Virus record (IMG/VR): IMGVR_UViG_3300025313_000944
Location: 23,333 to 87,332 of that record
Reading direction: 5' to 3' (one strand)
Source of the DNA: a virus
Length of the DNA: 64,000 bases
Both the position numbers and the translations under genes were made by a program. The notes beneath the pieces were generated by a model. That model made no database searches and had not been told where the DNA came from. It saw nothing but the letters and a program-made list of their open reading frames with translations. Positions 14,235-37,740 of this stretch are shown one piece after another; position 1 is the first letter of the stretch; each line of letters begins with the position of its first letter.

Positions 14235-14245
14235 GGTAGCATACC
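14235..14245 (+). repeat. GGTAGCATACC dispersed site, copy at the convergent junction
   Basis: One exact copy of an 11-base partly palindromic sequence (GGTA-GCA-TACC). It recurs at 31821, 37094, 37173, 37302 and 37546, and in reverse as part of 37332-37343. The copies I noticed lie outside genes. This copy lies between the end of the left operon and the convergent terminator. Likely a protein-binding site. Confidence 0.6.
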
Positions 14246-14265
14246 CCAAGCGGCTATGGGCAAAA

Positions 14266-14299
14266 GAAAACCCCCACCCTACTTAGGGTGAGGGTTTGA
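14266..14299 (-). terminator. Convergent terminator hairpin
   Basis: 11-base arms (14270-14280 and 14285-14295, one mismatch) around a 4-base loop, GC-rich. On the minus strand the stem is followed by TTTTCTTTTG, so it best terminates the leftward operon. It may also slow the rightward one. Confidence 0.75.
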
Positions 14300-14302
14300 T
14301 CC

Positions 14303-14500
14303 CTACATATATGTATGTAATGAGGGCTCCCTATTGGTTCGACCTCTGTATTTTATAATCCAACCACTTGGTATCATTTGTTTGGATTTTGTCAAAGCTT
14401 CTTCTCTATCCTTTCCATCTTGGACTATCCAACCATGTTGGCCTGTATTTCCCCAACCGTGACCGCCGTCAACACACCTGATTAGGAACATGTAATTCAT
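14303..14500 (-). CDS. Small protein, 65 aa, last gene of the leftward operon
   Basis: ATG at 14500 is chosen because AAGGAGAAAAAA precedes it. The sequence MNYMFLIRCVDGGHGWG followed by an EEALTKSKQ helix and WIIKYRGR looks like a compact alpha/beta protein. No family is recognised. Confidence 0.55.
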   Translation of the reverse strand: MNYMFLIRCVDGGHGWGNTGQHGWIVQDGKDREEALTKSKQMIPSGWIIKYRGRTNREPSLHTYM

Positions 14501-14510
14501 TTTTTTCTCC

Positions 14511-14807
14511 TTAAGTATAGAATAGGTTGCCCGCTTCCGAGTTCCAGCGGTGCAACTTGACCACCTCTTTATAAATAGCACTTCTTTCAGCAGCGGTAGA
14601 TGGCTGACCACCTACAAAGAGTGGTTGATATTTTGCTTCGATTTCTCGTTGGAGTTCTAACAGCTTGGCCAAGTATTCCTCATTAGCCAGCATTAGGGTT
14701 TGGAAATCTTCAGCAGAGACCGGGACTGAGTAACCTTTTTCATCAACGGTGTCAATAACCAGGTAACTGTTATCCTTGGTGTCGATTGGTGCAAATTGCA
14801 AATCCAT
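14511..14807 (-). CDS. Helical protein, paralogue A, 98 aa
   Basis: Contains LMLANEEYLAKLLELQREIE and the stretch FVGGQPSTAAERSAIYKEV, which match the protein encoded at 15697-15993 along its whole length. The two are the same length (98 aa) and lie about 1.2 kb apart in the same operon, so one is a duplicate. Function unknown; predicted coiled coil. Confidence 0.65.
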   Translation of the reverse strand: MDLQFAPIDTKDNSYLVIDTVDEKGYSVPVSAEDFQTLMLANEEYLAKLLELQREIEAKYQPLFVGGQPSTAAERSAIYKEVVKLHRWNSEAGNLFYT

Positions 14808-14818
14808 TTTATTTCTTC

Positions 14819-15202
14819 TTATATGTCAAATATTCGTATGCCATCACGAGTGATAGTAATAGATGGCAACCCACTTTTTGAGCCAAACCCCACGTCCAAC
14901 TTGGCTGATGCATAGCTAGGAATGTAGATATGAATTTCAGCATGACCCTCGCCGGTTTCCTCCACCCAAATATTTAGCTGTTCGCGGTTGGCTCTCTTGA
15001 GATTATGTTGGAAAGTTGCAGTTTGTTGGTGGATATAATCTGCTGTTATGCGAGGTAGGAACTTCTCAAGAAAGTGTACCCATTCCTGCATCTCTGCCGG
15101 ATAGCACCTAGGACAGAAAGCTTGACCCAAGATGAAACTGGGGGGTCCACCGAACCTTTCAGAATTTTCCGCACCACACTTGTTGCACTCGTACTCTGGC
15201 AT
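14819..15202 (-). CDS. Zinc-finger protein, 127 aa
   Basis: An N-terminal zinc site (ECNKCGAEN and FCPRCYP) is followed by a helical segment and a beta-rich C-terminus (EIHIYIPSY, ITITRDGIRIFDI). No family is recognised. It shares a stop/start base with the next upstream gene. Confidence 0.6.
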   Translation of the reverse strand: MPEYECNKCGAENSERFGGPPSFILGQAFCPRCYPAEMQEWVHFLEKFLPRITADYIHQQTATFQHNLKRANREQLNIWVEETGEGHAEIHIYIPSYASAKLDVGFGSKSGLPSITITRDGIRIFDI

Positions 15203-15396
15203 TATGAACGTACCTCCGTAAAATCGTAGAATGTTTTCAGGACCATATCCATGACATGGTCCAAGTCACTACTTTCCGCAAAGTCAAGGTCGAATTCGCG
15301 CGGAAAATTCTCTACCGAATCATATACATATAGATACGGCATCATGATCTTGACCAATTTTTGCAGAAATTCTAGGTCTCTTTTTGAGCTTCTCAT
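15202..15396 (-). CDS. Small acidic helical protein, 64 aa
   Basis: ATG overlap with the neighbour. Helical, with an acidic stretch FDLDFAESSDLDH. No family is recognised. Confidence 0.55.
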   Translation of the reverse strand: MRSSKRDLEFLQKLVKIMMPYLYVYDSVENFPREFDLDFAESSDLDHVMDMVLKTFYDFTEVRS

Positions 15397-15687
15397 TCAG
15401 GCATTCCCATCGTAATTTGGTGTTGGGGTGGGTGTTACCGGAACCACCGGCTTGGCTGCTTGTGGAGGCCAAGTGAACCCCACAGATGGCTGCTCCCACC
15501 ATTCAGCTTTCTGCAATTCTAGAATGTAGTTATCACATAGTGATTGGTGTCCGGTGTCGGCCATGCACTTGTCCCAAATTCCGCGGTAGTATTCTTGCTC
15601 CATTTTATTTTCTGTCAGCCTACCCAACAGTAAGCCCAAGATTATACCCAAAACCACAGTGATGATTGATACTTTACCGAATTTCAT
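15397..15687 (-). CDS. Membrane-anchored protein, 96 aa
   Basis: One N-terminal membrane helix (VSIITVVLGIILGLLLG) is followed by an acidic and aromatic domain with two Cys (KCMADTGHQSLC), and a Pro/Thr-rich tail (PVVPVTPTPTPNY). Probably exposed outside the cytoplasm. AGGAGG precedes the ATG. Function unknown. Confidence 0.62.
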   Translation of the reverse strand: MKFGKVSIITVVLGIILGLLLGRLTENKMEQEYYRGIWDKCMADTGHQSLCDNYILELQKAEWWEQPSVGFTWPPQAAKPVVPVTPTPTPNYDGNA

Positions 15688-15696
15688 TTTAACCTC

Positions 15697-15993: not shown

Positions 15994-15995
15994 TT

Positions 15996-17411: not shown

Positions 17412-17550
17412 GGTTACCTCCTAGATGGTGAACTTCTTTGAAATTAATAGATTCCACGTTTAAAAATTTCAACTTGTGCTTGCCGAGGAAAATGACAACC
17501 GACGTTGGTTTGTAATCTTTGTCGTAATGCACTATGATTCTAATCTGCAT
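17389..17550 (-). CDS. Small protein, 53 aa
   Basis: Opens at ATG 17550 inside the end of the upstream gene and reads MQIRIIVHYDKDYKPTSVV, then IFLGKHKLKFLNVESINF. It runs 23 bases into the next gene. The first 40 residues look like a beta-rich protein. The ribosome site is weak. Confidence 0.42.
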   Translation of the reverse strand: MQIRIIVHYDKDYKPTSVVIFLGKHKLKFLNVESINFKEVHHLGGNHGILRGN

Positions 17551-18305
17551 GTTTTATTCACCGGAAAGTCAATCTTATCCAATTCAGATTTGGGCATGTA
17601 CCACACCGCCGTGTGCTCCGGCCAAGTTCCGCTTGTTACGGACCATGGACCGCTATAAATATGTTTATCTGTAAAGTAAAGTTTATCTGTAAAGTAAAAT
17701 TTAAGATGCCTGTACCAATTGCTTAAACTTTGGTATTGAGTTCTTATTTTCAAACTGGATAAATCATAACCAAAAATTGAGCCGTCCAAGTCCTTGTGGT
17801 AATTTTCCCAAATACTGAGCAGTTCAAGTGAACATTCAATGTCAGGTTTGTAAACCGGGCACCAAACGTCCGGTGACACCTCGTAAGCTACGAAGTTCTG
17901 CACACCCCTCTGTCTGCTGGCTACCTCGTTGGGAACTCTATAGTTCTTGAAGATGTATATTGCCAGCTTGAGCAGGTCGAAGTTGTAACCACGACCTTCT
18001 CTCAGGTAACGTAGAATTGCGTGCAGCACCGGCCTAGGTGTGGTTGGATCAACGTCGGCCATTTCCTCAGCCGACTGTAAAACTATAGGTTGGTAGACTC
18101 CGTCTAGTATAGTGTTTGCTTTACCCACCCACTTGGCGAATTCGATTAGCTTTGCTGAATCCGGTGCCAATTTCCAGTAGCTAGAGACGGTGTGTATCCT
18201 GATTGAGTCTATTACCGAAACATTCTTGTAGAAGCACGTTGCAGTTTCGGCACAATGCGAGCTTACGTCTTGGCCGTTTACATGTACATAGTTGTAGCCA
18301 CTCAT
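17532..18305 (-). CDS. Unknown protein, 257 aa, next to the ATP-grasp gene
   Basis: No recognised domain. It overlaps the ATP-grasp stop by one base and may belong to the same pathway. Near the C-terminus the DNA carries an exact 18-base tandem duplication (about 17661-17696) giving FYFTDK-LYFTDK in the protein. The N-terminus (YVHVNGQDVSSHC) and many aromatics suggest an alpha/beta enzyme or a binding protein. Confidence 0.55.
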   Translation of the reverse strand: MSGYNYVHVNGQDVSSHCAETATCFYKNVSVIDSIRIHTVSSYWKLAPDSAKLIEFAKWVGKANTILDGVYQPIVLQSAEEMADVDPTTPRPVLHAILRYLREGRGYNFDLLKLAIYIFKNYRVPNEVASRQRGVQNFVAYEVSPDVWCPVYKPDIECSLELLSIWENYHKDLDGSIFGYDLSSLKIRTQYQSLSNWYRHLKFYFTDKLYFTDKHIYSGPWSVTSGTWPEHTAVWYMPKSELDKIDFPVNKTCRLES

Positions 18306-19168
18306 TAACCCTCTCCTATGAATAGGTAATCAGTATAAGATCGTGAATCAAGTAGCGGGTAATGCTCTCTCTCCCCGCTAAGTAACCAATCGAAATATTT
18401 AGCGTATTTACCCTGAGCATAATCTTCTAAAGTAGGTGAGGTGTTTACCTCACACACTACACATTGTGGATGATCCGGGCCATCCTCGGTTCTTGTCGGG
18501 TTAGCCATGATGTCTACCGCACCGTAATCCAAGCCGAGAACTTCTACAGCCTGAATTGCCAGCCTAATCTCGTCTATGGGCCAATTAGACCGCCTTAGCA
18601 CAACAAATTCAAAGTCATTGGTGGCGTGATTCCACACCGGTAGATTTACCTTATCTTCTTCACCCTCTCTCGGTCTCTTTTCGTTGACCAATAGAACTTT
18701 GCCATGAGCCACATGAACCCTGTATTCGTTTTGTTTCGGGTAGAACTCTGAGAAATACGAACCCACAAACGGTGGTGGCGTGTGGTGTAATTCGTCCTCA
18801 TCCTCGATCAGCCAAAAATTCTGACCACCTTGGTGAAACTGCGGCCTAAGAACTACCGGAAAGTTTAATGTCCAGTCTTGTATCGGCTTAGTCCAGACAA
18901 TGGTTTTGGGAACAGACACGCCAGCTTCTTGCAGCACCAGCCTTGCCCGGCCTTTGTCGCTGGCTAAGCCTATTCCCGACGATTGGTTGATTGTCTTTTT
19001 GGCGGGAATGTTAACACGACTTGCCCACCTAATCAACAATTCTACATTCTCAGGTGGGGCATCCCCTCTCCGCAAGCGCAACAATTGAATTTGGTCTTTG
19101 GTCTGCATCTTGTCGTAGATGCCTTGGACCGTCCTATGCCCGTTAGAAGCGCAAGTTAACAGGTTCAT
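18305..19168 (-). CDS. ATP-grasp ligase (RimK-like)
   Basis: A 287-residue protein with the ATP-grasp order. FPVVLRPQFHQGGQNFWLIE (103-122) is the small-subdomain ATP-binding loop, with Arg where Lys is more common. SEFYPKQNEYRVHV (140-153) follows. LDYGAVDI (213-220) and VVCEVNTSPT (237-246) carry the Mg-binding Asp, Glu and Asn. Such enzymes join a carboxylate, activated as acyl-phosphate, to an amine or peptide N-terminus. It lies with two amidoligases and three glutamine amidotransferases, so the product is probably a peptide-like or amidated compound. The N-terminal LLTCASNGH is shared with the next upstream gene. Confidence 0.85.
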   Translation of the reverse strand: MNLLTCASNGHRTVQGIYDKMQTKDQIQLLRLRRGDAPPENVELLIRWASRVNIPAKKTINQSSGIGLASDKGRARLVLQEAGVSVPKTIVWTKPIQDWTLNFPVVLRPQFHQGGQNFWLIEDEDELHHTPPPFVGSYFSEFYPKQNEYRVHVAHGKVLLVNEKRPREGEEDKVNLPVWNHATNDFEFVVLRRSNWPIDEIRLAIQAVEVLGLDYGAVDIMANPTRTEDGPDHPQCVVCEVNTSPTLEDYAQGKYAKYFDWLLSGEREHYPLLDSRSYTDYLFIGEG

Positions 19169-19401
19169 TCTAATACCTCCTCTACCTCTATGCTTATAAT
19201 CCTGTGGTTAGGTATCTCCAATAAGTTGGCAGCATGACCAGTCTCCAACAGAACATTTAGTTGGGTTCTCGTCAAATTACTATACGGCAGATTGGTTGTA
19301 AGTTCACCTATAGGCATTTTATAGGTGACCGTAACAATCCATTTACTTTTTTCCTCTCTGCCCGCGCTGTGACCATTATTAGCACAAGTTAGTATTTTCA
19401 C
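19165..19401 (-). CDS. Unknown protein sharing its N-terminus with the ATP-grasp enzyme, 78 aa
   Basis: GTG 19401 is chosen because AGAGGT lies upstream. The start KILTCANNGH closely matches LLTCASNGH at the start of the neighbouring ATP-grasp ligase. The rest (WIVTVTYKMPIGELTTNLPY, then an alpha/beta end) is unlike it. It overlaps both neighbours by 4 bases. Confidence 0.55.
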   Translation of the reverse strand: MKILTCANNGHSAGREEKSKWIVTVTYKMPIGELTTNLPYSNLTRTQLNVLLETGHAANLLEIPNHRIISIEVEEVLE

Positions 19402-19979
19402 TTCAAATACCTCTGTAGATAGGCTATGATTTGATGTAACTGACCCAGCACTTCTGGGTGCCATTGAACTGACACCACCGGTTTGTCTGGGTGCCAGATA
19501 GCTTCTATGATGCCGTCTTCAGCCACCGCTGCTACTTCCCAACTTGGCGGCACATCTTTGACGGCCTGGTGGTGCATAGAGTTGGCGCGAATGATTCTGG
19601 TGCCAAAAATTTCTTGCAGAATATTAGGCCCGGTTACGTGAACTGGGCCATGATGATGCCACCCAATCACCACACCATCAAGCTCTATATCTTGGTAGAG
19701 ACTACCACCAGCAGCGGCGGCGATGATTTGGTGCCCCCTACAGATGCCTACCATGGGGTGGTTCAATTCCAACAACCTTTTAGCTAGGTCGAATTCTCGT
19801 TTGTCGATGGCTGGCATCCACGGCCTAGAATGTGTATTCTCTTCCCCATACAGGCTGGGGTCGATATCCATACCCCCAGGGAACACCCAAGGTAAGTCGA
19901 GCGGTGGATTTTCTAGAAATTCTTGGTATTCTGCCTGTGTATAGTTTCTAGCAGGCCAGTCTGAATAATAAAAATTCAT
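19398..19979 (-). CDS. Class I glutamine amidotransferase / peptidase C26-like
   Basis: A 193-residue GATase domain. Oxyanion-loop region VFPGGMDIDP (about 32-41), nucleophile elbow GICRGHQ (Cys about 80), and QWHPE (His about 173, Glu about 175) complete the catalytic triad. NSMHHQAV is typical of the gamma-glutamyl hydrolase/PuuD branch. It would hydrolyse glutamine or a gamma-glutamyl amide, supplying ammonia to a ligase or trimming a gamma-glutamyl intermediate. Adjacent to the ATP-grasp gene. A second copy lies at 26005. Confidence 0.87.
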   Translation of the reverse strand: MNFYYSDWPARNYTQAEYQEFLENPPLDLPWVFPGGMDIDPSLYGEENTHSRPWMPAIDKREFDLAKRLLELNHPMVGICRGHQIIAAAAGGSLYQDIELDGVVIGWHHHGPVHVTGPNILQEIFGTRIIRANSMHHQAVKDVPPSWEVAAVAEDGIIEAIWHPDKPVVSVQWHPEVLGQLHQIIAYLQRYLK

Positions 19980-20722
19980 TATAAGTCCCTAGCCAATTCC
20001 AGCACCGCAGGTGGTGCTACTTCTTGCTCGCCGAAGAGAGACCACGCACCATAAGGCTCGTACCAGCCTCCATAGCTACAGCAAGCCTTAATTCTTTTGG
20101 CAAAAACTTGGTAACTGTTATTGATATTGCCCTCCAACCTGAGTTCAAAGACACCAAACCTGTTGCAGCGGTTACACTTACCCACCTGTGGTAGTAAGCT
20201 GAGAATTTCTTCTTTGTCTAAGAACAAGGCTGCCATGTAACCATCAAGGCCATCGTGATCTTCCACCATGGACCTGCGCCTGATGAAGAATGGGTGCAAT
20301 TCTGCCAAGGTGAATTCACCCAACAAAAAGCTCATAGCCCCGTCCCAAGTATCTTCACACCAATCTTCCTCTTGCTGTAATAAGCCCATATCTGCCAGTA
20401 CCTTGAGGAGCAGGTGGTCGAATTCCCACCACCCATCTTCGTAGCAGCCTCGGATGATACCAGCCGCAGCGTGTACCGCGGCCAGGTGGATGTCAGCAAG
20501 CTTGAGGGTTACTTTGTTTGACTCGAAAAAATCATCGAATTTTTTCTCGGCCTGCATGCCGAAGCTATTAACCAATGCTATGCGGTCATCTATTCCACCC
20601 CAGTTGGGTGAGTAGATGGTTAACAGCGCAGGTGAGTGGCTTCTTATTTGCCGTAGCATAGTTTCGCGGCAGGAGGTCGAGGACACTGCCGTACTGATGT
20701 AAAATTTGGTCGTCATTTCCAA
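19979..20722 (-). CDS. Unknown protein with C-terminal Cys cluster, 247 aa
   Basis: No family is recognised. The middle is helical and rich in Trp, Asp and Glu (CYEDGWWEFDHLLLKVL). Near the C-terminus CNRCNRFGVF with a later ACC suggests a zinc site. It overlaps the amidoligase by 10 bases and so probably serves the same pathway. Confidence 0.55.
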   Translation of the reverse strand: MEMTTKFYISTAVSSTSCRETMLRQIRSHSPALLTIYSPNWGGIDDRIALVNSFGMQAEKKFDDFFESNKVTLKLADIHLAAVHAAAGIIRGCYEDGWWEFDHLLLKVLADMGLLQQEEDWCEDTWDGAMSFLLGEFTLAELHPFFIRRRSMVEDHDGLDGYMAALFLDKEEILSLLPQVGKCNRCNRFGVFELRLEGNINNSYQVFAKRIKACCSYGGWYEPYGAWSLFGEQEVAPPAVLELARDL

Positions 20723-21618
20723 GCCTCCATAATATAGTTTTTCGGTGGTGCGGGTGCTTGTACACCGAAAAATTCAGAAACATTAGAAAATAATTGCTTG
20801 GCCGCTTCTGGATCACAGTTGTTTATGGTGGGTACCACTCGCCCAAAGTCTAATTGATTGATAAATTCAAACGGGTTATAACCATCTTCGATTAAAACGT
20901 GCACCATTTTAGCCAGACCCAGTAGACCGGCAGTTAATTCAGGATTGGTACTGGCCACACTACTGGGGGTGCGGTATTCTACACCCCAAGGCTGGATACG
21001 GAACTTTCCAGCCCGACCATACATCTGCCTACGTTGGCGGCCTAGGTCGGTGCTCTCGATCAGTACATCATATAACCCTAACGTACAGTCGAGTAGCATC
21101 ACCAAGCCTTGGACCTTGTTCATGTCCTTGTGAATTTCACTGATAGAGAAGTGAATGTGAAATCCGCCTGTCCGCCAAGTTATCTTGCGTGGGTCTTGCC
21201 AGGGACAGGTGGACAGGTCATACAAGCACTTGTCCGGCGAGCAGCCCAGTACCCTAAGTTCGGGGTGGTCTACCAAGTCTCTTGGGTCTAAGTAAACCAG
21301 CGGTGCTGCTGATAAGATATAACCGTTGTCATCAGCTAGTTTCCAAGCCTCACGCAAACCTTCGTAGAGGTGTTGCATCAGGCTATCCACCTCTCGCTCC
21401 GGTGTAACTGGGACCTCCAAAGCCAACCCATCCTCAGTCAGCTTGGAGTTTGCCAGCGTCACCTCGGCTGTCCAGTAGCCACCGTCGGCGATGTCTGAAC
21501 CTATTTCTTTGAAGATCGGCCTGTGTTGCTTGGAAGCAACTAGTACATCTTTAGCCGGCTTGGCCAAGCCTGATGGAGACTGGTAAAAATATTCACAATC
21601 TAAGCCTATCAAGTTCAT
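20713..21618 (-). CDS. Amidoligase, COOH-NH2 ligase family (phiEco32-like type)
   Basis: ATG 21618 is chosen for the GAGGATAAA site. The 301-residue protein fits the glutamine-synthetase-fold amidoligase pattern: LIGLDCEYFY (3-12), an acidic beta segment with AEVTL, LGCSPDKCLYD (124-134), GGFHIHFS (151-158), LLDCTLGLYD (175-184) and YGRAGKFRIQPWGVEYRT (200-217). These His, Glu and Arg residues would bind ATP and metal. The superfamily makes amide or isopeptide bonds. It lies in a run with ATP-grasp and GATase genes; a distant second amidoligase lies at 26739. Confidence 0.75.
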   Translation of the reverse strand: MNLIGLDCEYFYQSPSGLAKPAKDVLVASKQHRPIFKEIGSDIADGGYWTAEVTLANSKLTEDGLALEVPVTPEREVDSLMQHLYEGLREAWKLADDNGYILSAAPLVYLDPRDLVDHPELRVLGCSPDKCLYDLSTCPWQDPRKITWRTGGFHIHFSISEIHKDMNKVQGLVMLLDCTLGLYDVLIESTDLGRQRRQMYGRAGKFRIQPWGVEYRTPSSVASTNPELTAGLLGLAKMVHVLIEDGYNPFEFINQLDFGRVVPTINNCDPEAAKQLFSNVSEFFGVQAPAPPKNYIMEAWK

Positions 21619-21619
21619 T

Positions 21620-22255
21620 TTATCCTCTACCCGTATTGTATGTAGTTGTTGTGGGACCTGCCCACCTAATATATTGTCGGACACTCTCTCTTGCTTGCGC
21701 CATACCTTCTAAATTTTCTGAACTTGGTTGTTCTAGTTCATCGTCTGGTTCATCATCCTCTTCTAAATCTAGTGACGCTGGTTCTGGCTCCGTGACAGAG
21801 TGCCTCGGCTTGATAATAGTGATGACGGGGTTGTATTTCTCCTCTATTTTGCGCAAGTTCGTGGCTTGACATTCTCTGACCAAGGCGCACGTTTTGCAAG
21901 CAACTTTATGTACACAGTTGGGGCAAACTATAGCCGCGTATCTGGCACACCAACCCAGCTTGTCGGTGATGTTGCCACACCGGCAGACATCTATTAGATC
22001 GAAATCCACAAGTTGCCCGCCGGTGCCACAGCTTGTGCACGTTATAAATTCTATGTCGTGCACGGTTACGTTGTGCAATTTCTTCTTGGAAGAAAGGTTG
22101 AAGTTGGTAATCCTGTCCTCCGCCGACAAGCCTTGGGTTTCTAACAGAGCTTTGGTGGCTTGTCCCATCAGTTGTAGGCTGAGGCATTCCAGTAACAAGT
22201 CAGCCTTAACCGCACCTTTGATGTCAGTGCCACCACACGTTTTACACCTAAGCAT
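21620..22255 (-). CDS. Multi-zinc-finger protein, 211 aa
   Basis: Cys pairs at CKTCGG near the N-terminus, TCTSCGTG, CRCGN, CPNC and CKTC predict two or more zinc sites. A strongly acidic linker (LDLEEDDEPDDELEQ) precedes the C-terminus. It could be a scaffold or nucleic-acid-binding protein. It stops one base before the amidoligase start, so the two are co-transcribed. Confidence 0.6.
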   Translation of the reverse strand: MLRCKTCGGTDIKGAVKADLLLECLSLQLMGQATKALLETQGLSAEDRITNFNLSSKKKLHNVTVHDIEFITCTSCGTGGQLVDFDLIDVCRCGNITDKLGWCARYAAIVCPNCVHKVACKTCALVRECQATNLRKIEEKYNPVITIIKPRHSVTEPEPASLDLEEDDEPDDELEQPSSENLEGMAQARESVRQYIRWAGPTTTTYNTGRG

Positions 22256-22601
22256 TTAAATACCTCCTGACCGATGTATCGTTTATATATCTAACCTCTT
22301 TGGGGTCGAGCCTTAGTATCGGAGCCACCATATATTTGTCGATAAATAAATCACTCCTGATTAATACATTATTATCCTTGTCCAGCTCCATGACCACGAA
22401 CCTGCCCGCCCACACGTTTCTGGCGGTGGGCCACATGTAATTGGTAAAGATGATGGTTTCGACCTCGCCATCTTCAATCAGGCTTATATAATAGCCTAGT
22501 AGATTGCGGTTGACCTGCATACCACCTGCCCCACCTGTAACTACCATGGGTGACAGCTTGGTGCTTTGCCGAAACTCACTTAGCAATTGCTTTATATTCA
22601 T
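22248..22601 (-). CDS. Unknown protein, 117 aa
   Basis: Mixed alpha/beta. The middle (YYISLIEDGEVETIIFTNYMW) is strand-rich and Ile/Val-rich. No recognised motif. Overlaps both neighbours. Confidence 0.52.
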   Translation of the reverse strand: MNIKQLLSEFRQSTKLSPMVVTGGAGGMQVNRNLLGYYISLIEDGEVETIIFTNYMWPTARNVWAGRFVVMELDKDNNVLIRSDLFIDKYMVAPILRLDPKEVRYINDTSVRRYLNA

Positions 22602-22945
22602 TGGGGTTTATCCCTCGGCAGGAATACCAACTCCACTCTACTCTTTAATTTCTGGCTGGTTTCTACCGTCCATTTTCTGCTAATGCGTTCTGTTTCTTCT
22701 CCTTCCACGAATACCTTTATTCTGTTGGGGAAGAAAACCACACCGTTTATGTTGAATGGGCAAGACTTACCATAAAATGAGTGGGTTTTTCCTCTGAATT
22801 TGTAAACCTTACCTTGTGATAGTTGCTTGGCGGTATCGACAAACCGAAAATTTAACAAATCTTTTTCGGTTACAATCTCCACCTTGACTACTTGGTCATT
22901 AAAATTGCTTTCTAACATCTGGTAGTGGAGGTCCTTAATCTTCAA
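22598..22945 (-). CDS. Unknown protein, 115 aa
   Basis: Beta-rich, with VVKVEIVTEKD and GVVFFPNRIKVFVEGE. No family is recognised. Similar in size to the next gene and coupled to it by a 4-base overlap. Confidence 0.52.
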   Translation of the reverse strand: MKIKDLHYQMLESNFNDQVVKVEIVTEKDLLNFRFVDTAKQLSQGKVYKFRGKTHSFYGKSCPFNINGVVFFPNRIKVFVEGEETERISRKWTVETSQKLKSRVELVFLPRDKPQ

Positions 22946-23627
22946 CCTGCACCTCCGCAGCCTTGAACATATTTTCCAACATGGTCTTGTACGCCCTAGC
23001 TGTTACACCATAGAAGGCCGATTTTAACTTGTTTTGAGTCTCGGCGGTGTCGATAGTTTGTAGGTGGCCACTTAACACTAGCGAGAACAGCCCATAGGTT
23101 ATTAGACCCAACATATCATCTGCCTTTTTTAGACTCAAAGTAGTCACACCTAAATCACGAACGGCGATGTAAGCCAAGGCTACCAAAGCCATTATGCCGG
23201 TGATCTTCCACTTCTGGTCTGGTTCATCTTCAAACCAGATTGTGCAATCGTTCTTATCGAAGTCGGTTTTGAGCAGCTCTACTACCAGTTTATCTATCGA
23301 ATCCACCGTGTGCTGCACACTCTTGTTGAAGACCGTACCCGAATCGAACACCACCCGCACGATCTCCCCGTGCCGGTTGAAGGTTACGATACTTTGGTTG
23401 TCGTCCCAAGCAGGTACCAACAACTTGTCCTTTATCTTGGGAAAGCTTTGTGTTCCCCGCAAGGTTCTATCGTCTTGGGTGGCTATAAATGCTGGCATAC
23501 CGTCGATGTCTACCACAAGTCCGCGCTCAAAAGCCAAACCTGTGACAACGTGATCGACGAAAGCTTTGGTATCCAGCAAATTTCTATCGTAAGAACTCTC
23601 AGCTAAAAACTTGTCAATTGTCCACAT
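22935..23627 (-). CDS. Unknown protein, 230 aa
   Basis: An N-terminal half with strands and Asp-rich turns, and a C-terminal half with hydrophobic helices (GIMALVALAYIAV). No family is recognised. It overlaps the RuvB-like ATPase by 14 bases, suggesting a partner role. Confidence 0.52.
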   Translation of the reverse strand: MWTIDKFLAESSYDRNLLDTKAFVDHVVTGLAFERGLVVDIDGMPAFIATQDDRTLRGTQSFPKIKDKLLVPAWDDNQSIVTFNRHGEIVRVVFDSGTVFNKSVQHTVDSIDKLVVELLKTDFDKNDCTIWFEDEPDQKWKITGIMALVALAYIAVRDLGVTTLSLKKADDMLGLITYGLFSLVLSGHLQTIDTAETQNKLKSAFYGVTARAYKTMLENMFKAAEVQVED

Positions 23628-24354
23628 ATACTTCCCTACCTCTAGGTGTAATTCTGATCAGTTGTTTTTGTAAGAGAAAAGGTTCTATCTCTTCCTCCAC
23701 GGTTTCTCTCGGCAATCCCAAGCTGGCTGAAATAACTCTGGCTGAAACTGGTCCTCTCTTACTAACAAATTCTAAATAACTCCTATCATTGCCGGTGAAG
23801 CCAGCAGCTTGGTAGCCTAGAGTTTCCAGCATTTGGTCATACTCGGTTTGTGTTGCCTGAGAATATCTGTAGTATTGCTCCAAACTTATTACCTCTTTGG
23901 CCAACGTGACCGCCACTCTAGGTGAACCTCTACACCTAATTGATATCCTGTTAGCAGCCAAGTCACTGATCGGAACGTGAACCTTGGCTATTTGGGCCAA
24001 CTGTATTTCAGTGTATGGTTCCAGCCACAGTTCTATCATTCTGGACCTGAGCGGCTCGCTGACCGGTGCGCCGGTAGTAGTACAACCTATAAGGGTACTA
24101 TAGGCATACCACGCCTCCTCATTGGGGAGCCGGTGTATCTCGTCGATAATTACCGGCTCCCCATCTTCAGGAGGGTATAATCTACCGGTGCATAGGTTGT
24201 AGTAGTATGCCTCTCTTGCAACTTGGTTGGCATACCACTTGGCTAGTAAGGTTTTACCGCTGCCGGGTGGACCACGAAACAGAGCGTTTTGGTGATTCTT
24301 GGTGGCTACCCACACTCTGATTCTAGTTTGTATGATTTCCTGTCCAATTATCAT
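23614..24354 (-). CDS. RuvB-like AAA+ ATPase
   Basis: ATG 24354 overlaps the preceding stop (TAATG). The 246-residue protein has Walker A GPPGSGKT (28-35), Walker B VIIDEIHRL (68-76), an arginine-finger region PLRSRMIELWL, and a C-terminal winged helix close to RuvB (SASLGLPRETVEEEIEP, then LIRITPRGREVY). RuvB drives Holliday-junction branch migration. This one is shorter than the ~330-residue bacterial protein and has no RuvA beside it. Together with the nuclease at 493 it could process replication or recombination intermediates. Confidence 0.82.
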   Translation of the reverse strand: MIIGQEIIQTRIRVWVATKNHQNALFRGPPGSGKTLLAKWYANQVAREAYYYNLCTGRLYPPEDGEPVIIDEIHRLPNEEAWYAYSTLIGCTTTGAPVSEPLRSRMIELWLEPYTEIQLAQIAKVHVPISDLAANRISIRCRGSPRVAVTLAKEVISLEQYYRYSQATQTEYDQMLETLGYQAAGFTGNDRSYLEFVSKRGPVSARVISASLGLPRETVEEEIEPFLLQKQLIRITPRGREVYVDN

Positions 24355-25628: not shown

Positions 25629-25993
25629 AATTTCTCCTGCAAAACCCTGCGGTGGATTTCAGACCGCCAAGGTCTTTCCTGTGTTCTTTCTTCTATTTCC
25701 ACTTTATAATGCCACTCCATATTGTCCGGTATTTTGGTCCACGCCATTGGCTGAACTTTGTGGTCGGGAAAGTCAATGCCTAGTTCTTTGCACAAATTTT
25801 TGACATAAGAAGCACCCATGTCCACCCAACCACAGCCGTTCCAAAATGCAGGAATGGTGTGGGTCTCACCTCTAGCGGAATTGTGCAACCCTCTGTATCT
25901 ATCCTCTGCTGTATACTCGGTGGTAATAAGAGCTTCCCACCCCGCATCTTCATCGAAGTATAGCTGACCATCAATCAATTCCAAGTTTACCAT
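25616..25993 (-). CDS. Unknown protein, 125 aa
   Basis: ATG 25993 is chosen for the AAGGAAAA site. A beta-rich, acidic N-terminus (LELIDGQLYFDEDAGW) is followed by ALITTEYTAEDRYRGL and a charged helix. No family is recognised. Overlaps the amidotransferase start by 13 bases. Confidence 0.52.
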   Translation of the reverse strand: MVNLELIDGQLYFDEDAGWEALITTEYTAEDRYRGLHNSARGETHTIPAFWNGCGWVDMGASYVKNLCKELGIDFPDHKVQPMAWTKIPDNMEWHYKVEIEERTQERPWRSEIHRRVLQEKLCAD

Positions 25994-26004
25994 TTTTATT
26001 TTCC

Positions 26005-26628: not shown

Positions 26629-26629
26629 T

Positions 26630-26716
26630 TTAGCACCCCCTCAGAACCAAGAGTATTATTACAAGTACCACCAAATATAGAAACCATAGGTAGAGTTGTC
26701 CTTCGTTTAATCTCAT
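26630..26716 (-). CDS. Tiny membrane peptide, 28 aa
   Basis: ATG 26716 follows AAAAGGAGAAAA. The product is a single hydrophobic helix (LYLWFLYLVVLVIILLVL). It ends one base before the amidotransferase start. Good ribosome site, hence a likely real gene; role unknown. Confidence 0.6.
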   Translation of the reverse strand: MRLNEGQLYLWFLYLVVLVIILLVLRGC

Positions 26717-26738
26717 TTTATTTTCTCCTTTTATTCTT

Positions 26739-27821
26739 TTAATCGTAGTAACCATTGTCCCAAATGGACCGAATAAATTCTCTGTCAACCACCGGCGGTA
26801 CCAAGCGACTGTCCATAGCTTCCAGATTCACGTAGGCGCTCTGGTTCCTACATAGATGATTTATCTGTGGGCCTTGAACACCTAGTTGCCAGTCCGATTT
26901 AGACCACAACCGGTACAGCTTATCCAAGGTGTAGTCCTCCATAGGAACCACAGCCAGTAGGTCTTCCAACGTATAATCTTCGTAGGTTTTCCCCAAAGGA
27001 AAGCGAGGGATATCCAATTCCACCGGTTTGGCGTAGGCGGCTCTAACCACCGCCAGACACAGGTGTACCCAAGCTTCCACGTTTTTGAAATCCAGTGTTT
27101 GATTAAAACACCGGAATTCGATAGTGCCTTGCCTTAGAAGTGGCACCGGGTTTAGCCAGTAATAGCGTGGCGGTATCCACTTGCTTCTCTGCTGGTCGGC
27201 TCTACCCCAAGCCTGCAATACCTCTTCGGTAGAATTAGCATACATGATTATTCTGTCAACATCGAAGCATTGCCGCCAATGCTCATTACCATCTTTAACA
27301 TATTGTGGACCAGCACCGGTCAATGGCCGACAGTACATGTAATCGTTATGACTGATACCACGATGGTACAACAACTCAGCCACAGAAAGTCTGAACATAG
27401 GCGCTTCTATCCTAGTAGCAATTTCCAGGATGTTCTTAATGACCTCGACCGGTGGTAATGTTCCCATGTAAACGTGGACATGTACTGAGGTCAAAGTCGA
27501 GAGGTACTCTCCGTACCTCTTCAGTAGCTTGGTTAAAGCTTGAATATCCTCTCTGAACTTGGCTGAGGTTAGTTTACTGTAGACAGGTGAAACCAGTTCC
27601 CCGCCGACTTGGCGGGATGGCAGGATGTCAAGCAACGAATCTCCACGGTCTACCTCTAGGCGGATACCATCTACCTCTAGTCCCCGCTTGGTGCAGGAGC
27701 CATCTCGCGTCAGAGACCAACCCCTCAGATCAGATTTCTTGGGGGGCCAATGACCGTCGATGTCGAAGCTGTTGAATTCGTACTCTACGCCGAAGCTACT
27801 ACCTATTTCGTAGATTGCCAT
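26739..27821 (-). CDS. Amidoligase of the Amidoligase_2 type
   Basis: ATG 27821 is chosen for the AAGGAGC site; the frame is open further up without a good start. The 360-residue protein begins with FGVEYEFNSF (10-19), the Glu-rich strand of this superfamily. WSLTRDGSC, GGELVSPV (73-80), SVHVHVYM (112-119) and GTIEFRCFNQTLD (232-244) follow in the family's order. These residues form the ATP and metal site for carboxylate-amine ligation. It is clearly distinct in sequence from the first amidoligase at 20713. Confidence 0.78.
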   Translation of the reverse strand: MAIYEIGSSFGVEYEFNSFDIDGHWPPKKSDLRGWSLTRDGSCTKRGLEVDGIRLEVDRGDSLLDILPSRQVGGELVSPVYSKLTSAKFREDIQALTKLLKRYGEYLSTLTSVHVHVYMGTLPPVEVIKNILEIATRIEAPMFRLSVAELLYHRGISHNDYMYCRPLTGAGPQYVKDGNEHWRQCFDVDRIIMYANSTEEVLQAWGRADQQRSKWIPPRYYWLNPVPLLRQGTIEFRCFNQTLDFKNVEAWVHLCLAVVRAAYAKPVELDIPRFPLGKTYEDYTLEDLLAVVPMEDYTLDKLYRLWSKSDWQLGVQGPQINHLCRNQSAYVNLEAMDSRLVPPVVDREFIRSIWDNGYYD

Positions 27822-27831
27822 GTTTTGCTCC

Positions 27832-28293
27832 TTAACTATGTACCAAATACAACCATACTTCACTGTTTATTCCAGCATGGTACAGTTTGGATTTAGCTTG
27901 ACGATGCTTGGCTGCCAACTCCATAATGTCATACCCACCGAATCGAGGCCGTTGAACCCGCACTGTTGTGCCAGAATAGTCATCGGATAATTCGGCCAAA
28001 GTTACACCAAGTATTCCATTAAGGACACCACCCTTGGGGGCATAATAACTGACATGCAGATCGAGGCCGTGTTCTTCCTTGAACCAATCTTGATACCAGT
28101 CGAGGTCGTATTCCAATACGCCAAATTTGAGAAGTTCAACCTCTTTGGTCTCTAAAGCTGGCTCGCCTTGGCTGTCGTGCAAGTAATAAATATTTGCACC
28201 CAATACAATGCTTTTCTTAATCTTGATCTGTTTGATAGTAGGTTTAAGGTAATCTTCAGCCCGCACGCCTACCATCAAAGTTACCTCGCTCAT
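27832..28293 (-). CDS. Unknown protein, 153 aa
   Basis: ATG 28293 follows AAGGAGATTAAA. Alpha/beta content with no recognised motif (LDWYQDWFKEEHGLD, then VRVQRPRFGGYDIMELA). Just upstream of the amidoligase in transcription order. Confidence 0.55.
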   Translation of the reverse strand: MSEVTLMVGVRAEDYLKPTIKQIKIKKSIVLGANIYYLHDSQGEPALETKEVELLKFGVLEYDLDWYQDWFKEEHGLDLHVSYYAPKGGVLNGILGVTLAELSDDYSGTTVRVQRPRFGGYDIMELAAKHRQAKSKLYHAGINSEVWLYLVHS

Positions 28294-28370
28294 TTTAATC
28301 TCCTTGAAATACTGGTCCAAAAGCGGACCGTGAAATAGATTAACCCGATTAACAAGGCTATCTCAATCAT
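28290..28370 (-). CDS. Tiny membrane peptide, 26 aa
   Basis: ATG 28370 lies 8 bases inside the end of the methyltransferase gene. The product is a single hydrophobic helix (IALLIGLIYFTVRFW) and its stop overlaps the next ATG by 4 bases (ATGA). It fits the operon's packing but is short. Confidence 0.48.
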   Translation of the reverse strand: MIEIALLIGLIYFTVRFWTSISRRLK

Positions 28371-31191: not shown

Positions 31192-31484
31192 TTATTCTGC
31201 CTCCTTATAGTTAACACAATCCTCACAGATGCCATTCTCATTTAGCGGTTGAATATCATCACAATTGTTGCACATTCTGAATTCGATGTGTTGGTAGGTA
31301 TTCGTAGTTATATCGACTGCTGTGAGACCCCAAGGGTTGTCAGCATTGGCTACCAACAGCTTGTCTCCCACCCGAATTGGTGCGTCATAGCCAACATCCG
31401 TTATTTTCTTCAGTGCGGCTTCAAAGGTTGGAGTAAGACTTTGCTTTCCGCCAGAACGTCGTAGTGGTGCTTAAATTTTGCCAT
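31192..31484 (-). pseudogene. Zinc-ribbon gene with an apparent frameshift
   Basis: ATG 31484 reads MAKFKHHYDVLAES and stops after 24 codons. In a second frame, without its own start, the sequence continues as FEAALKKITDVGYDAPIRVG, then HIEFRMCNNCDD and CEDCVNYKEAE. The joined product would match the zinc-ribbon protein at 29200 in its start (FKHHYDV / FKWHHEV) and its ribbon (CNNCDDIQPLNENGICEDC / CEECGELEPLNDNNLCETC). A base insertion or deletion within the first ~70 bases explains it. First gene of the leftward operon; AAGGAG lies upstream. Confidence 0.6.
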
Positions 31485-31499
31485 TTCCGTTTTTATTCT

Positions 31500-31745
31500 C
31501 CTTGAAAAATTTTTGCCTAAATAATTGGCCCTGTTACCTCGAAACCGAGGCCGGTGAGAAACACAAAATCCTAGCGCAACCACGGTCCGGTCAAGAACCT
31601 AGGTCGGCTAGGATTTCATTAGAAACCACAATTGATGGTTCCGAGATTGGTGGTAGCAATCTTGGGTGGTACTGACCCCACATAATTCATATCTCTCAGG
31701 TTCTACGATAATTTGGTGCAAACTGGTTAATTCCAGTGTCTAACT
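31500..31745 (-). promoter_or_regulatory. Long structured 5' leader of the leftward operon
   Basis: About 260 bases separate the leftward start site (near 31745) from the first ATG (31484). Two perfect 10-base arms (31566-31575 and 31607-31616) enclose a 31-base loop. Closer to the gene, CCTCG and CGAGG pair around GTTT, beside a GTTACC-type repeat (31504-31550) also seen in the 36.7-37.5 kb field. A 23-codon open frame (31619-31690) could be a leader peptide. A regulatory RNA is possible but no known riboswitch class is recognised. Confidence 0.45.
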
Positions 31746-31751
31746 GTAGGA

Positions 31752-31780
31752 ATTGTAGCACGAGGTACTTTGGCTGTCAA
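31752..31780 (-). promoter_or_regulatory. Leftward sigma70-type promoter
   Basis: On the minus strand TTGACA (31775-31780) and TACAAT (31752-31757) are 17 bases apart, with TGC before the -10 (extended -10). This is near-consensus and points at the leftward operon. Confidence 0.8.
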
Positions 31781-31820
31781 GCAGTAGATTTACCTATAGC
31801 AATCTATAGCTTAACTAGCT

Positions 31821-32018
31821 GGTAGCATACCTAGGCAGGGAGAAAGCACATATATAATGAAACACGGTAATTAACCGCAAATTGCGTATTCGGTGCACTA
31901 AATTAAATTAACTGGGTGACATACCAAGGCAGGGCGTGAAGCATATATAATGAAGGCCGGTGAACGACCGTGATTTACGTATTAGGTACGTTATTTTTAC
32001 CTTGAGCGGTAGCATATC
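31821..32018. repeat. Tandem ~94-bp repeat in the divergent control region
   Basis: Two full units and the start of a third begin at 31821, 31915 and 32008. Each starts with a GGTAGCATACC-like site (exact, GGTGACATACC and GGTAGCATATC), then AGGCAGGG. Next comes a conserved block AAGC-(AC)ATATATAATGAA, a CGGT-N5-ACCG inverted repeat, and CGTATT-GGT. The TATATAATGAA block also appears at 37648-37666. The unit lies between divergent promoters, so it is probably regulatory, such as operators or an origin-like element. Confidence 0.7.
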
Positions 32019-32039
32019 TTGGACTGCTGACCAGCTCTA

Positions 32040-32100
32040 GGTAGCCTACCCAAACTCGGTGAAACTGGTTCTTGACAATGCACTCACCGTGTGCTATAGT
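32040..32100 (+). promoter_or_regulatory. Rightward extended sigma70-type promoter with upstream block
   Basis: TTGACA (32072-32077), 17-base spacer, TATAGT (32095-32100) with TGC just before it. Upstream lie GGTAGCCTACC (32040-32050) and GGTGAAACTGG. The same architecture recurs at 37094-37150, and in part at 33276-33320. It drives the 32170 operon. Confidence 0.82.
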
Positions 32101-32127
32101 AGACCTAGTGATTGGAGTATTGGCAAC

Positions 32128-32145
32128 CCACCCCTAGCTGGGTGG
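32128..32145 (+). promoter_or_regulatory. 5' leader hairpin upstream of the 32170 gene
   Basis: CCACCC (32128-32133) pairs with GGGTGG (32140-32145) around a 6-base loop, just after the transcription start and before the GGAGGTGAG ribosome site. May protect the mRNA 5' end. Confidence 0.45.
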
Positions 32146-32169
32146 AACTAGCTCATTGGAGGTGAGCAA

Positions 32170-32391
32170 ATGAGAACGATTAGATGCCCTCGCTGCGGTA
32201 ACTTTCACACGATTGGGCAGAATAGTGCCGACTTGATCTGCCCCACCTGTAGAGACCGAGAGTACCAAGAAACGTTGAGTCACCGAGTCGTCCCTCGCAA
32301 ACCAGGGTTGTATTTTCTGTCAGCCCCGGTCGGTTGGGTTCGTATCAATAACGATGACAACCAAGATGAGGTGAATAATGTCGAAATTTGA
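32170..32391 (+). CDS. Zinc-ribbon protein, 73 aa
   Basis: CPRCGNFHTIGQ with CPTCRDREYQ near the N-terminus forms a zinc ribbon, followed by a beta-rich stretch (PGLYFLSAPVGWVRI) and an acidic tail. Starts after GGAGGTGAG. First gene of the rightward operon; overlaps the next gene by 14 bases. Confidence 0.62.
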   Translation: MRTIRCPRCGNFHTIGQNSADLICPTCRDREYQETLSHRVVPRKPGLYFLSAPVGWVRINNDDNQDEVNNVEI

Positions 32392-33295
32392 TGATCTCAT
32401 CAATATGGCGGTAAAACTTGGTTACTCAATAGAAGCTGAGGAAAAAAAGAGAAGCAAAGCGGCTGCGGTTAGCCGCAAGGCCGGCAAGAAGAAGCGCCAG
32501 CCCGGTGTCAGAAAGTTTGGTGAGGATACTTACCTAACCAGTAAGCTTCTCTACAAGATAATGGATAGAACCGACAAAACTGTCCATTATGTGGCGGGCA
32601 TAGGTGCCGCCGAAAAGTTGGTGGAAGGGTTAAAGACTGAGGAACACAACCTAGTTCTATTTACCACTAACACTTCAGGTGACAAGCTGGTGGCACCTAA
32701 GCACTACCAATGTATCGTATCCAGCAACGGCAAAGCCGGTTATGCTTCCTTCTTCCGACCAACAACCGAGTGGCGGCGGGCAAAAATCCACAATAAAGAT
32801 GGAGCACCTGAATGGGGATTAATACAAATCCTGCCTTGGCCAATAGCACCGGGTGGGTTCTATTTCCTGCTAAAAGACATTCAGGGCGGGGAGAAAGAAG
32901 TCACCGAGGAAGAGCAACGGAAAGTTATAGTTGCCGGTCCTTACCGTGTGGCTGAGGAAAAATATTTGCAGGAATTGTCCAAAGGGGATAGGTTGGTAAT
33001 CGAGGACATCTTGGATGACCGGGCTTTGTTGGACGCCGTTGAATTGGTTCTGAATTGCCACTTCTCGGAATTGTCCACTAGGAGGGCACTGGACATCCTA
33101 CGCAAAGGTACGACCAGATATGCTCATGACCCGACCGAAATAGCAGAAGGTTCCAGCCGGGCTCAGAGAGACCAGCAGACGATAGAGAACCAGCAAACGG
33201 TGATCGACCGGCAAGCTAAAGAGATAGAGAGATTGAGTCTTATAGTCACCCAACAACTGGGAATAATCCAAGGTCTGGGTGAAACTACTGCTTGA
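32378..33295 (+). CDS. Unknown protein with basic N-terminus and C-terminal coiled coil, 305 aa
   Basis: Residues about 22-45 are rich in Lys and Arg (KKRSKAAAVSRKAGKKKRQ). The central ~150 residues are alpha/beta without a named motif. The last ~45 residues form a Gln/Glu-rich heptad run (QQTIENQQTVIDRQAKEIER). A DNA-binding regulator or a replication-associated protein is possible. The stop codon lies in the -35 box of the next promoter (33292). Confidence 0.55.
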   Translation: MSKFDDLINMAVKLGYSIEAEEKKRSKAAAVSRKAGKKKRQPGVRKFGEDTYLTSKLLYKIMDRTDKTVHYVAGIGAAEKLVEGLKTEEHNLVLFTTNTSGDKLVAPKHYQCIVSSNGKAGYASFFRPTTEWRRAKIHNKDGAPEWGLIQILPWPIAPGGFYFLLKDIQGGEKEVTEEEQRKVIVAGPYRVAEEKYLQELSKGDRLVIEDILDDRALLDAVELVLNCHFSELSTRRALDILRKGTTRYAHDPTEIAEGSSRAQRDQQTIENQQTVIDRQAKEIERLSLIVTQQLGIIQGLGETTA

Positions 33296-33320
33296 CACTG
33301 AGCTTACCCGATGCTAATCT
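33276..33320 (+). promoter_or_regulatory. Promoter embedded in the end of the 32378 gene
   Basis: TTGACA (33292-33297), 17-base spacer and TAATCT (33315-33320) with TGC before it. Preceded by GGTGAAACT, as in the two sister promoters. The TGA stop of the upstream gene overlaps the -35 box. A short perfect hairpin (33339-33358, 8-base arms, loop AAGC) lies at the start of the transcript. Confidence 0.7.
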
Positions 33321-33338
33321 AAGACTGTAGCAGTAGAC

Positions 33339-35754: not shown

Positions 35755-35781
35755 TAGGACAACCTTTAAGGAGGTACTCAA

Positions 35782-36642
35782 ATGTCTAGCAAGCACAACC
35801 GAATATTTGTGGTACTGGTGATCTTGGCTCTCTTATTCAGTTTGGCATCGGTGGCCTACGCCGAAAAACCAGACAATGATGGGGAACACGGTAACTCCGG
35901 CCAACACGATCCCGACGATGATGGCCGAGGCCCCGACCGGGGTGAGGGTAAGCCGGATGACACCGATGGTGATCACAACAATGGTTCAGGCAATGACCCC
36001 GATCATTGCGACGACAACGAGGGTCGGTGTGGAAATGACGGAGATGAAGGTGGACCCGAAGCTACCGAGGAACCACTTGCTGACGAGCCTACCCAAGAAG
36101 CTACTCAGGAACCTACACCAGAAGAGACAAGTGTGCCTGAGGTGACGGAGCAGCCAACTGAGGAGGCTACGCCTGAAGTTACACCTTTGCCGGAGGAGAC
36201 ACCCACACCTGAGGTAACTGAGCAGCCTGAGCTTCCGCCACCTTACACACCTACTGAGCTACCACAACCACCACAGACACCCAGAGGTGGTATCCCAGAT
36301 CGAGACTGCTGGCCAACCGATGCCGATAGTTACACTTGTGGTGGTGACGAAGATACCGGACACAACAATAATGACACCTTTGTTCCGGTGATCGACGAAG
36401 TCGTGGTAGAACAGGGCTTGGAGCCGTTGCCTATGGCGGGTGTTACAGAATTACCTACCTTGGGTTATGGACCTCCGCCAAATAGCTTGTACTTGAATAC
36501 GGTGTTTGTCTTAATTGCCTTGGCTTTTTGGGCGGGATCGCTGACAACCACCGTTGGTATCTACTTCTTAGCGCCGCGGCCTAAAGCCACCAAGCAGGAA
36601 ATGCCTTACCTCGTTCTAGATAACGGTGATGATCTCTGGTAG
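35782..36642 (+). CDS. Secreted, membrane-anchored Thr/Pro/Glu-rich protein, 286 aa
   Basis: A signal peptide (FVVLVILALLFSLASVAYA) is followed by an Asp/Gly-rich region (DPDDDGRGPDRGEG, possibly calcium-binding), then repeats of PEVTEQPTEEATPEV-type sequence, and a C-terminal membrane helix (LNTVFVLIALAFWAG). This looks like an exposed cell-surface protein anchored by its C-terminus. Such tails are common in Chloroflexota proteins. It could alter the host surface during infection. Confidence 0.65.
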   Translation: MSSKHNRIFVVLVILALLFSLASVAYAEKPDNDGEHGNSGQHDPDDDGRGPDRGEGKPDDTDGDHNNGSGNDPDHCDDNEGRCGNDGDEGGPEATEEPLADEPTQEATQEPTPEETSVPEVTEQPTEEATPEVTPLPEETPTPEVTEQPELPPPYTPTELPQPPQTPRGGIPDRDCWPTDADSYTCGGDEDTGHNNNDTFVPVIDEVVVEQGLEPLPMAGVTELPTLGYGPPPNSLYLNTVFVLIALAFWAGSLTTTVGIYFLAPRPKATKQEMPYLVLDNGDDLW

Positions 36643-36668
36643 TAACCATACACAAGGTAGTTGAGTAC

Positions 36669-36698
36669 AGCCCGCAAGAAATTGCGGGCTTTCTTTTT
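36669..36698 (+). terminator. Strong rho-independent terminator
   Basis: AGCCCGCAA pairs perfectly with TTGCGGGCT around GAAA, followed by TTCTTTTT. Ends the 32170-36642 operon. Confidence 0.92.
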
Positions 36699-36954
36699 GA
36701 CCAAAACCAAGTCGGTACTTCAAAGTTTTTCTCCATCAGAAATATTTCCGCGCAAATACCCAAGCCTGTTACCTCGGAAACCTTGTGGGTACCCAACCTA
36801 GCAATAGATGAGACTACAACTGTAGACTAAGCTACCTACCAACTTTTCGCGGGAAAGATATCTTGGTTAATATAATATCTATAATAGAGTACTACTATCT
36901 TGGTAACAAAATGACTGTTTAAAATCAACACACGGTCTTGGATTAGACTACCGG

Positions 36955-37009
36955 CTATTTAAAATGAGGATTACTATTTAAAATGAGGATGGCTATTTAA
37001 AATGAGGAT
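36955..37009 (+). repeat. Three 19-bp direct repeats (iteron-like)
   Basis: CTATTTAAAATGAGGAT begins at 36955, 36974 and 36993, spaced exactly 19 bases. A fourth, weaker start (CTGTTTAAAAT) lies upstream near 36914. A nearly two-turn spacing on an AT-rich background suggests a protein-binding array, possibly a replication origin. Confidence 0.8.
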
Positions 37010-37024
37010 TGGTTCGGCGGTAGA

Positions 37025-37062
37025 TTACCGGCCGGCCGGTAAGTCTTACACTCTGTAAGACT
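37025..37062. repeat. 18-bp palindrome plus adjoining hairpin
   Basis: TTACCGGCCGGCCGGTAA (37025-37042) is a perfect palindrome. It is followed at once by AGTCTTACA-CTC-TGTAAGACT (37042-37062), a perfect 9-base hairpin. Both sit next to the iterons. Confidence 0.75.
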
Positions 37063-37093
37063 TCATCTAAACTACACTAGTCTACTATATACT

Positions 37094-37150
37094 GGTAGCA
37101 TACCTTAGGTGAAACTGGTACTTGACAAATAAAGTACCATGTGCATAGCG
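37094..37150 (+). promoter_or_regulatory. Degenerate copy of the 32040 promoter unit
   Basis: GGTAGCATACC, GGTGAAACTGG, then TTGACA (37122-37127), with TGTGC 12 bases on and ATAGCG at the -10 position (37145-37150). The -35 half is intact and the -10 is poor. No gene lies close downstream, so it may be a decoy or regulated promoter. Confidence 0.5.
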
Positions 37151-37301
37151 GTATCTTGTAAGTTTATTTCTAGGTAGCATACCAAACAAGATTTTGCCGC
37201 AAAAGTAGAAGTCACCCTTGTTTGGTATCTTTACTATATGTAGAACGGTACCACACCGTCAAGATATTTCCCACAAAAAGTCAAGTACAGCAAACTTGCT
37301 T

Positions 37302-37343
37302 GGTAGCATACCTACCCCTAGCTTGGAAGTCAGGTATGCTACC
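37302..37343. repeat. Inverted pair of GGTAGCATACC sites
   Basis: GGTAGCATACCT (37302-37313) faces AGGTATGCTACC (37332-37343) across 18 bases, a perfect 12-base inverted repeat made from the dispersed site. Confidence 0.7.
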
Positions 37344-37740
37344 TATTCAAATTATTTCACTCCAAATATTTTCCGCCCAAAGAGTTAAGCCCGTTACGTA
37401 TAGGGACAAGACGGTACCACACCTAACTTTGCTGCAAAGATTGGCTTGGTATTATTTTACCGCTAATAAAATCTTTCCAAGTAAGTTGGCCTGTTACCTA
37501 GAGAGTGGGTGAAGTAAAGTTTGTGAGTAATTTCACTTATACTTCGGTAGCATACCGGGCTCTTATCCTGGGACTTCGTGAAATCTTTCACACAAGGGCT
37601 GGGCGCCGTTTCCTTGTCCAGCAAAAGCTTTTTGGATACTCCCCTGCTTGAAGCACATATATAATGAAGTAACTTGTAAAATGTAGATTTAATTATATAA
37701 CTGACATGTAAAGTTGATAGTTTATCGAATATCCAATGAC

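Follow-up and report, generated by a model that had tools for sequence, protein, structure and literature searches.

The window analyzed here is a stretch of 64,000 nucleotides, bases 23333-87332 of the 87,332-base record of the studied virus (G000). Copies and variants of one 11-mer, GGTAGCATACC, lie at an operon junction near 14.25 kb, in a divergent control region (31371-32170) and in the long noncoding stretch that follows 36643. The junction is that of the replication and amidoligase operons, and a lone copy there precedes a terminator.

14235-14245, plus strand: exact lone copy of GGTAGCATACC, in the intergenic region where two operons converge, 22 nt ahead of the terminator; its positional equivalent in the relative G018 is at 66990
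14268-14297, no strand assigned: bidirectional terminator hairpin AAACCCCCACCCTACTTAGGGTGAGGGTTT, predicted from an inverted repeat and its fold

The amidoligase operon (17532-28320, minus strand) carries RimK/ATP-grasp-like, amidoligase, COOH-NH2 ligase and glutamine amidotransferase genes, and is common to the relatives G016, G018, G023 and G032.

In the divergent control region, one exact copy and three variants are located between a leftward (31780-31752) and a rightward (32072-32100) promoter. The sites at 31821 and 31915 each belong to a copy of a repeated unit of ~93 bp, and both are followed 20-21 nt later by TATAATGAA.

31751-31794, minus strand: predicted class I promoter of the leftward amidoligase operon
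31821-31831, plus strand: exact copy, located upstream of the leftward promoter; it ends 21 nt short of the TATAATGAA box, its centre being at about -39
31843-31862, plus strand: class II promoter-like element AAGCACATATATAATGAA, found also at 31936-31955 and 37650-37669
31915-31925, plus strand: variant GGTGACATACC (2 mismatches), in the second ~93-bp copy of the promoter unit that holds the 31821 site
32008-32018, plus strand: variant GGTAGCATATC (1 mismatch)
32040-32050, plus strand: variant GGTAGCCTACC (1 mismatch), centred near -62 relative to the rightward promoter
32058-32101, plus strand: predicted class I promoter of the small rightward operon

The stretch after 36643 contains five exact copies, grouped around a predicted promoter at 37108 and beside three 19-bp direct repeats. 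The inverted pair at 37302 and 37333 forms a strong hairpin when folded (z = -4.1).

36953-37010, plus strand: three 19-bp direct repeats GGCTATTTAAAATGAGGATT, noncoding, possible iterons
37019-37029, plus strand: degenerate site GGTAGATTACC, adjoining the 19-bp repeats
37094-37104, plus strand: exact copy, centred near -57 relative to the promoter at 37108
37108-37151, plus strand: predicted class I promoter with a poor -10 box
37173-37183, plus strand: exact copy, near +22 relative to the promoter at 37108
37247-37257, plus strand: related palindrome GGTACCACACC, with a second copy at 37413-37423
37302-37312, plus strand: exact copy, left arm of the inverted pair
37333-37343, minus strand: exact copy reversed, right arm of the inverted pair
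37546-37556, plus strand: exact copy

Around this cluster, inspection by eye also suggested two likely small unlisted genes (37869-38191; products of about 59 and 48 aa) directly downstream of a strong promoter (37825-37853). Secreted proteins are predicted at 35782-36642 and 39150-39338, the first with Pro/Thr/Glu-rich stretches (by eye).

These sites had been noticed in an earlier sequence-only reading, and its coordinates all proved correct, both for the exact copies (14235, 31821, 37094, 37173, 37302 and 37546 on the plus strand, 37333-37343 on the minus strand) and for the variants at 31915, 32008 and 32040. Genes were called with a simple coding-potential caller, which gave 102 genes and 81% coding DNA. 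In the whole 87.3 kb record GGTAGCATACC has seven exact copies, with no extra one in the 23.3 kb outside the window. The same reading had described the sites as all noncoding; indeed, the seven exact copies fall outside called genes and none is coding (binomial p = 7e-6 for a noncoding fraction of 0.184), so that equal density inside genes was not seen. A purely mechanical ORF with a TTG start (37222-37512) covers the exact copies at 37302 and 37333 together with some of the cluster; as the gene caller did not pick it, this stretch was counted as noncoding. When the noncoding 11-mers of the virus were ranked by copy number, GGTAGCATACC came at the top with 7 copies; in 100 second-order Markov sequences of equal noncoding length, no 11-mer exceeded 3 copies. 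Genes hold degenerate forms only, such as GGTATCATACC at 11531, GGTATTATACC at 8947 and GGTACATTACC at 10350. Enrichment in noncoding DNA was also found for the looser pattern GGT-N5-ACC (22 noncoding versus 26 coding occurrences, Fisher p = 1.6e-5).

The core GGTA-N3-TACC is palindromic, as had been claimed, but its centre GCA is fixed. Since the centre is fixed and the plus strand carries six of the seven exact copies (nine of ten when variants are counted), GGTAGCATACC is best described as an oriented site.

Promoters were identified by comparing the noncoding DNA of the virus with itself. Five predicted class I promoters (3596, 32058, 33278 and 37108 on the plus strand, 31794 on the minus strand) share the consensus GGTGAAACTnnTnCTTGACA-N7-TnACCnnrTGC-TAnnnT, in which the inverted half-sites GGTRA and TNACC flank the -35 box (TTGACA). 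Those lying outside the regions described above, with a nearby degenerate site, are the following.

3576-3586, plus strand: degenerate site GGTGAAGCACC; relative to the promoter at 3596, its centre is near -64
3596-3639, plus strand: predicted class I promoter (GGTGAAACTnnTnCTTGACA-N17-TAnnnT), preceding the gene for RNA ligase
33278-33321, plus strand: predicted class I promoter

The neighbourhood of promoters, terminators and hairpins reported earlier was thus recovered, in the form of promoters predicted at 31.8-32.1 and 37.1 kb and of the terminator at 14.25 kb. Three class I promoters have a site or degenerate site near -57, -62 and -64, respectively, and one has a site at +22. Taken together, the site-promoter distances (-57, -62, -64, -68 and +22) are not in phase with the DNA helix, an arrangement more in keeping with repression than with contact activation. 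At five promoters in G000 and at least four in G018, TTGACA is flanked by inverted GGTxA/TxACC half-sites. In G000 the promoter half-site GGTGA and the GGTAGC of the 11-mer are not identical; therefore it is not certain that a single protein would recognize both. A second repeated noncoding element, CAAGAAATAAAGTTT, is found around 4687-4870 (locus L009, left of the window), with one copy further left; it occupies the other divergent control region, the one without GGTAGCATACC.

Relatives, a large uncultured group, were gathered through the portal protein. The exact 11-mer was present in none of 44 other related viral records. Several copies are present in the record G001, which was rejected as independent evidence because it represents the same virus, with 3 differences in the first 26.9 kb. 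The first 137 bases of the studied record and window positions 63864-64000 match at 98.5% identity along 137 bp, and G001 crosses the join; a circular or terminally redundant genome, recorded nearly in full, is therefore probable.

In G018 (80,112 bases; portal 42% identical), the top noncoding 11-mer is a different word, GGTATCTAACC, which has 8 of 11 letters in common with GGTAGCATACC. Its seven copies are all noncoding (p = 4e-7) and all on one strand. Their clusters, one at 0.56-1.3 kb and the other at 79.1-79.4 kb, are interspersed with genes of the small rightward operon and lie around early-type promoters; one lone site, at 66990, follows the replication operon and precedes a terminator hairpin by 18 nt. 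The two viruses thus have in common clusters in the rightward operons and a lone site 18-22 nt before the terminator at the junction of the replication and amidoligase operons. Gene order (RNR, amidoligase-type genes and the homologue of the 32378 gene, at 76139 in G018) is syntenic there and supports the equivalence of these positions. Conservation in related phages, as a check on the earlier reading, therefore failed for the exact letters and held for the arrangement, in G018 and with a changed word. Moreover, G018 promoters carry GGTTAA and TTAACC around TTGAC, and GGTAA half-sites are found at the matching divergent promoters of G023. The G018 region matching the 37 kb cluster displays GGTTA half-sites recurring at 16 and 18-19 bp steps.

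Outside G018, GGTATCTAACC was found once each in G004, G030 and G032. Counts of GGTA-N3-TACC in 16 relatives were at control level in most. Another repeated noncoding word, AGTACAAAATA, occurs in G036 (L133-L136; five of six copies noncoding) and is likewise concentrated outside genes in G016 (L115-L119), where the signal is weaker. Megablast against phage records gave no match, the 32378, DNA polymerase and RNR proteins used as queries brought up no relative, and a scan of genome contigs for site plus promoter returned two single matches, about the chance expectation, with no further copies.

A candidate regulator is encoded next to the replication genes.

1534-1950, plus strand: sigma-region-4/LuxR-like HTH protein, candidate regulator

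The 1534 protein, named in the sequence-only reading as one to test for binding, gave on its own a weak LuxR-type match (E = 0.008). A profile built with its syntenic homologues (G004, G016, G018 at 59855-60220, G023, G036 and G047) matched solved sigma-region-4 and NarL-type HTH domains (best E = 4e-5). The family is kept at the same gene position in relatives; the G023 homologue seems to have lost part of the HTH. No GGTAGCATACC site lies near the start of the operon of 1534 itself. From its sequence, we regard this HTH-family protein as a candidate regulator only. In a subset of proteins scanned for a repressor with HTH plus Stoperator domain, it was the only one to turn up. Integrases/resolvases (PF00589, PF00239), HTH_3 repressors (PF01381) and ParA-type ATPases (AAA_31) gave no match in G000, G018 and G023, a search that small divergent proteins could escape. 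Thus, the site set cannot be taken as an immunity system.

Altogether, the word is repeated, restricted to noncoding DNA, biased in orientation, placed near promoters and terminators, and matched in G018 by a changed word in the same layout; it is in all likelihood regulatory and operator-like. We consider it likely that GGTAGCATACC is the recognition site of a sequence-specific phage transcription regulator, serving as operators and stoperator-like sites, and that the most probable effect is to block initiation and read-through. Binding by a protein and its action by repression over activation are inferred, with the 1534 protein as no more than a candidate. The regulator would bind at several sites near the divergent early-type promoters (31.75-32.1 kb) and in the promoter region around 37.1 kb, and also, at 14.25 kb, on the lone copy that precedes the terminator; there it would repress initiation and perhaps block elongation or read-through; its targets are most likely early phage genes. 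A repressor of initiation, perhaps also of elongation, fits because the sites are repeated and confined to noncoding DNA, are unphased relative to promoters, and include one after a start and lone ones before terminators. Between relatives, its specificity may have drifted while the site layout was kept.

The proposal of an operator or stoperator made in the sequence-only reading can be retained for the operator part, which agrees with the noncoding restriction, the predicted promoters and the G018 layout. The stoperator part stands partially: a single prevailing orientation and a lone pre-terminator site are found in both phages, but most sites lie in long control regions rather than in short gene gaps. 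Against the operator reading, the exact word is private to the studied virus, and the sites at 31821 and 31915, at about -39 of a TATAAT box without a -35 element, would suit an activator too.

Indeed, an activator box replacing the -35 element at phage-specific promoters would explain why these two sites end 20-21 nt before TATAATGAA. The third TATATAATGAA box (37650) has no good site and the other sites stand at -57, -62, +22 or far from any promoter, so that this explanation appears improbable. Slightly better placed, though still unlikely, is a replication origin at 37.0-37.6 kb, in which the 11-mers and 19-bp repeats would be initiator iterons and the scattered copies autoregulatory. The direct repeats beside the cluster and the stepped GGTTA half-sites of G018 agree with it; the distant sites, at promoters and in front of a terminator, do not, no initiator protein was recognized, and GC skew turns at operon boundaries rather than at the cluster.

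An element acting in RNA, GGUAGCAUACC as a small protein-bound hairpin in transcripts, could account for the presence of almost all copies on the transcribed strand and for the strong 37302/37333 hairpin. We judge it very improbable: copies fold differently, most stretches have folds hardly better, if at all, than those of shuffled sequences, the sites at 31821 and 31915 are upstream of promoter-like boxes, and Rfam gave no match. Centromere-like (parS) sites of an extrachromosomal prophage would combine clustered palindromes with scattered copies as here, but with no ParA-type ATPase match in G000, G018 and G023 this explanation is largely refuted and retains hardly any probability.

Returning to the operator-like reading, a bolder form of it would be that an apparently non-integrating phage family maintains a genome-wide operator/stoperator network in which the word varies, the layout is fixed and the regulator, perhaps the sigma-region-4/LuxR-like protein conserved in the replication operon, is of a kind so far not linked to such sites; we find this doubtful. 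If the operator-like reading is true, dispersed operator networks, best known so far from temperate actinobacteriophages and SPbeta, also occur in a large uncultured phage group with no recognized lysogeny module. G000 and G018, with the same layout and different words, would then be a ready system for finding the regulator through matched changes in protein and site.

Operators of the lambda cI type are palindromic sites at divergent promoters, and in this respect resemble those of G000. Unlike in lambda, no HTH_3 repressor was found, the half-sites are closer together and sites extend outside one immunity region. Another likeness is to the stoperators of cluster A mycobacteriophages (L5, TipsytheTRex), many short oriented sites at promoters and gene gaps with a related word per genome (PMC6550527, PMC9283540). 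As in cluster A, the sites of G000 are dispersed, short, near-identical and noncoding, are found at promoters and at gene ends or intergenic positions (31.8-32.1, 37.1 and 14.25 kb), lie mostly in one orientation (in G018 as well) and, between G000 and G018, use genome-specific yet related words. L5 has more than 20 asymmetric 13-bp sites per genome, bound by a monomer of a known repressor, whereas in G000 the seven exact sites are 11-bp quasi-palindromes whose asymmetric centre is fixed; most of them lie in long control regions, and no repressor or integrase was found. The SPBRE of Bacillus phage SPbeta is a repeated intergenic element at many promoters, bound by MrpR (PMC10516654). It differs in being a 15-bp element of a prophage with a recombinase-fold repressor, whereas the 11-bp word belongs to a virus with no integrase-family match. 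SPBRE was nevertheless recognized from sequence years before its repressor (PMC10516654), and thus provides a precedent for GGTAGCATACC as a dispersed phage element seen before its repressor.
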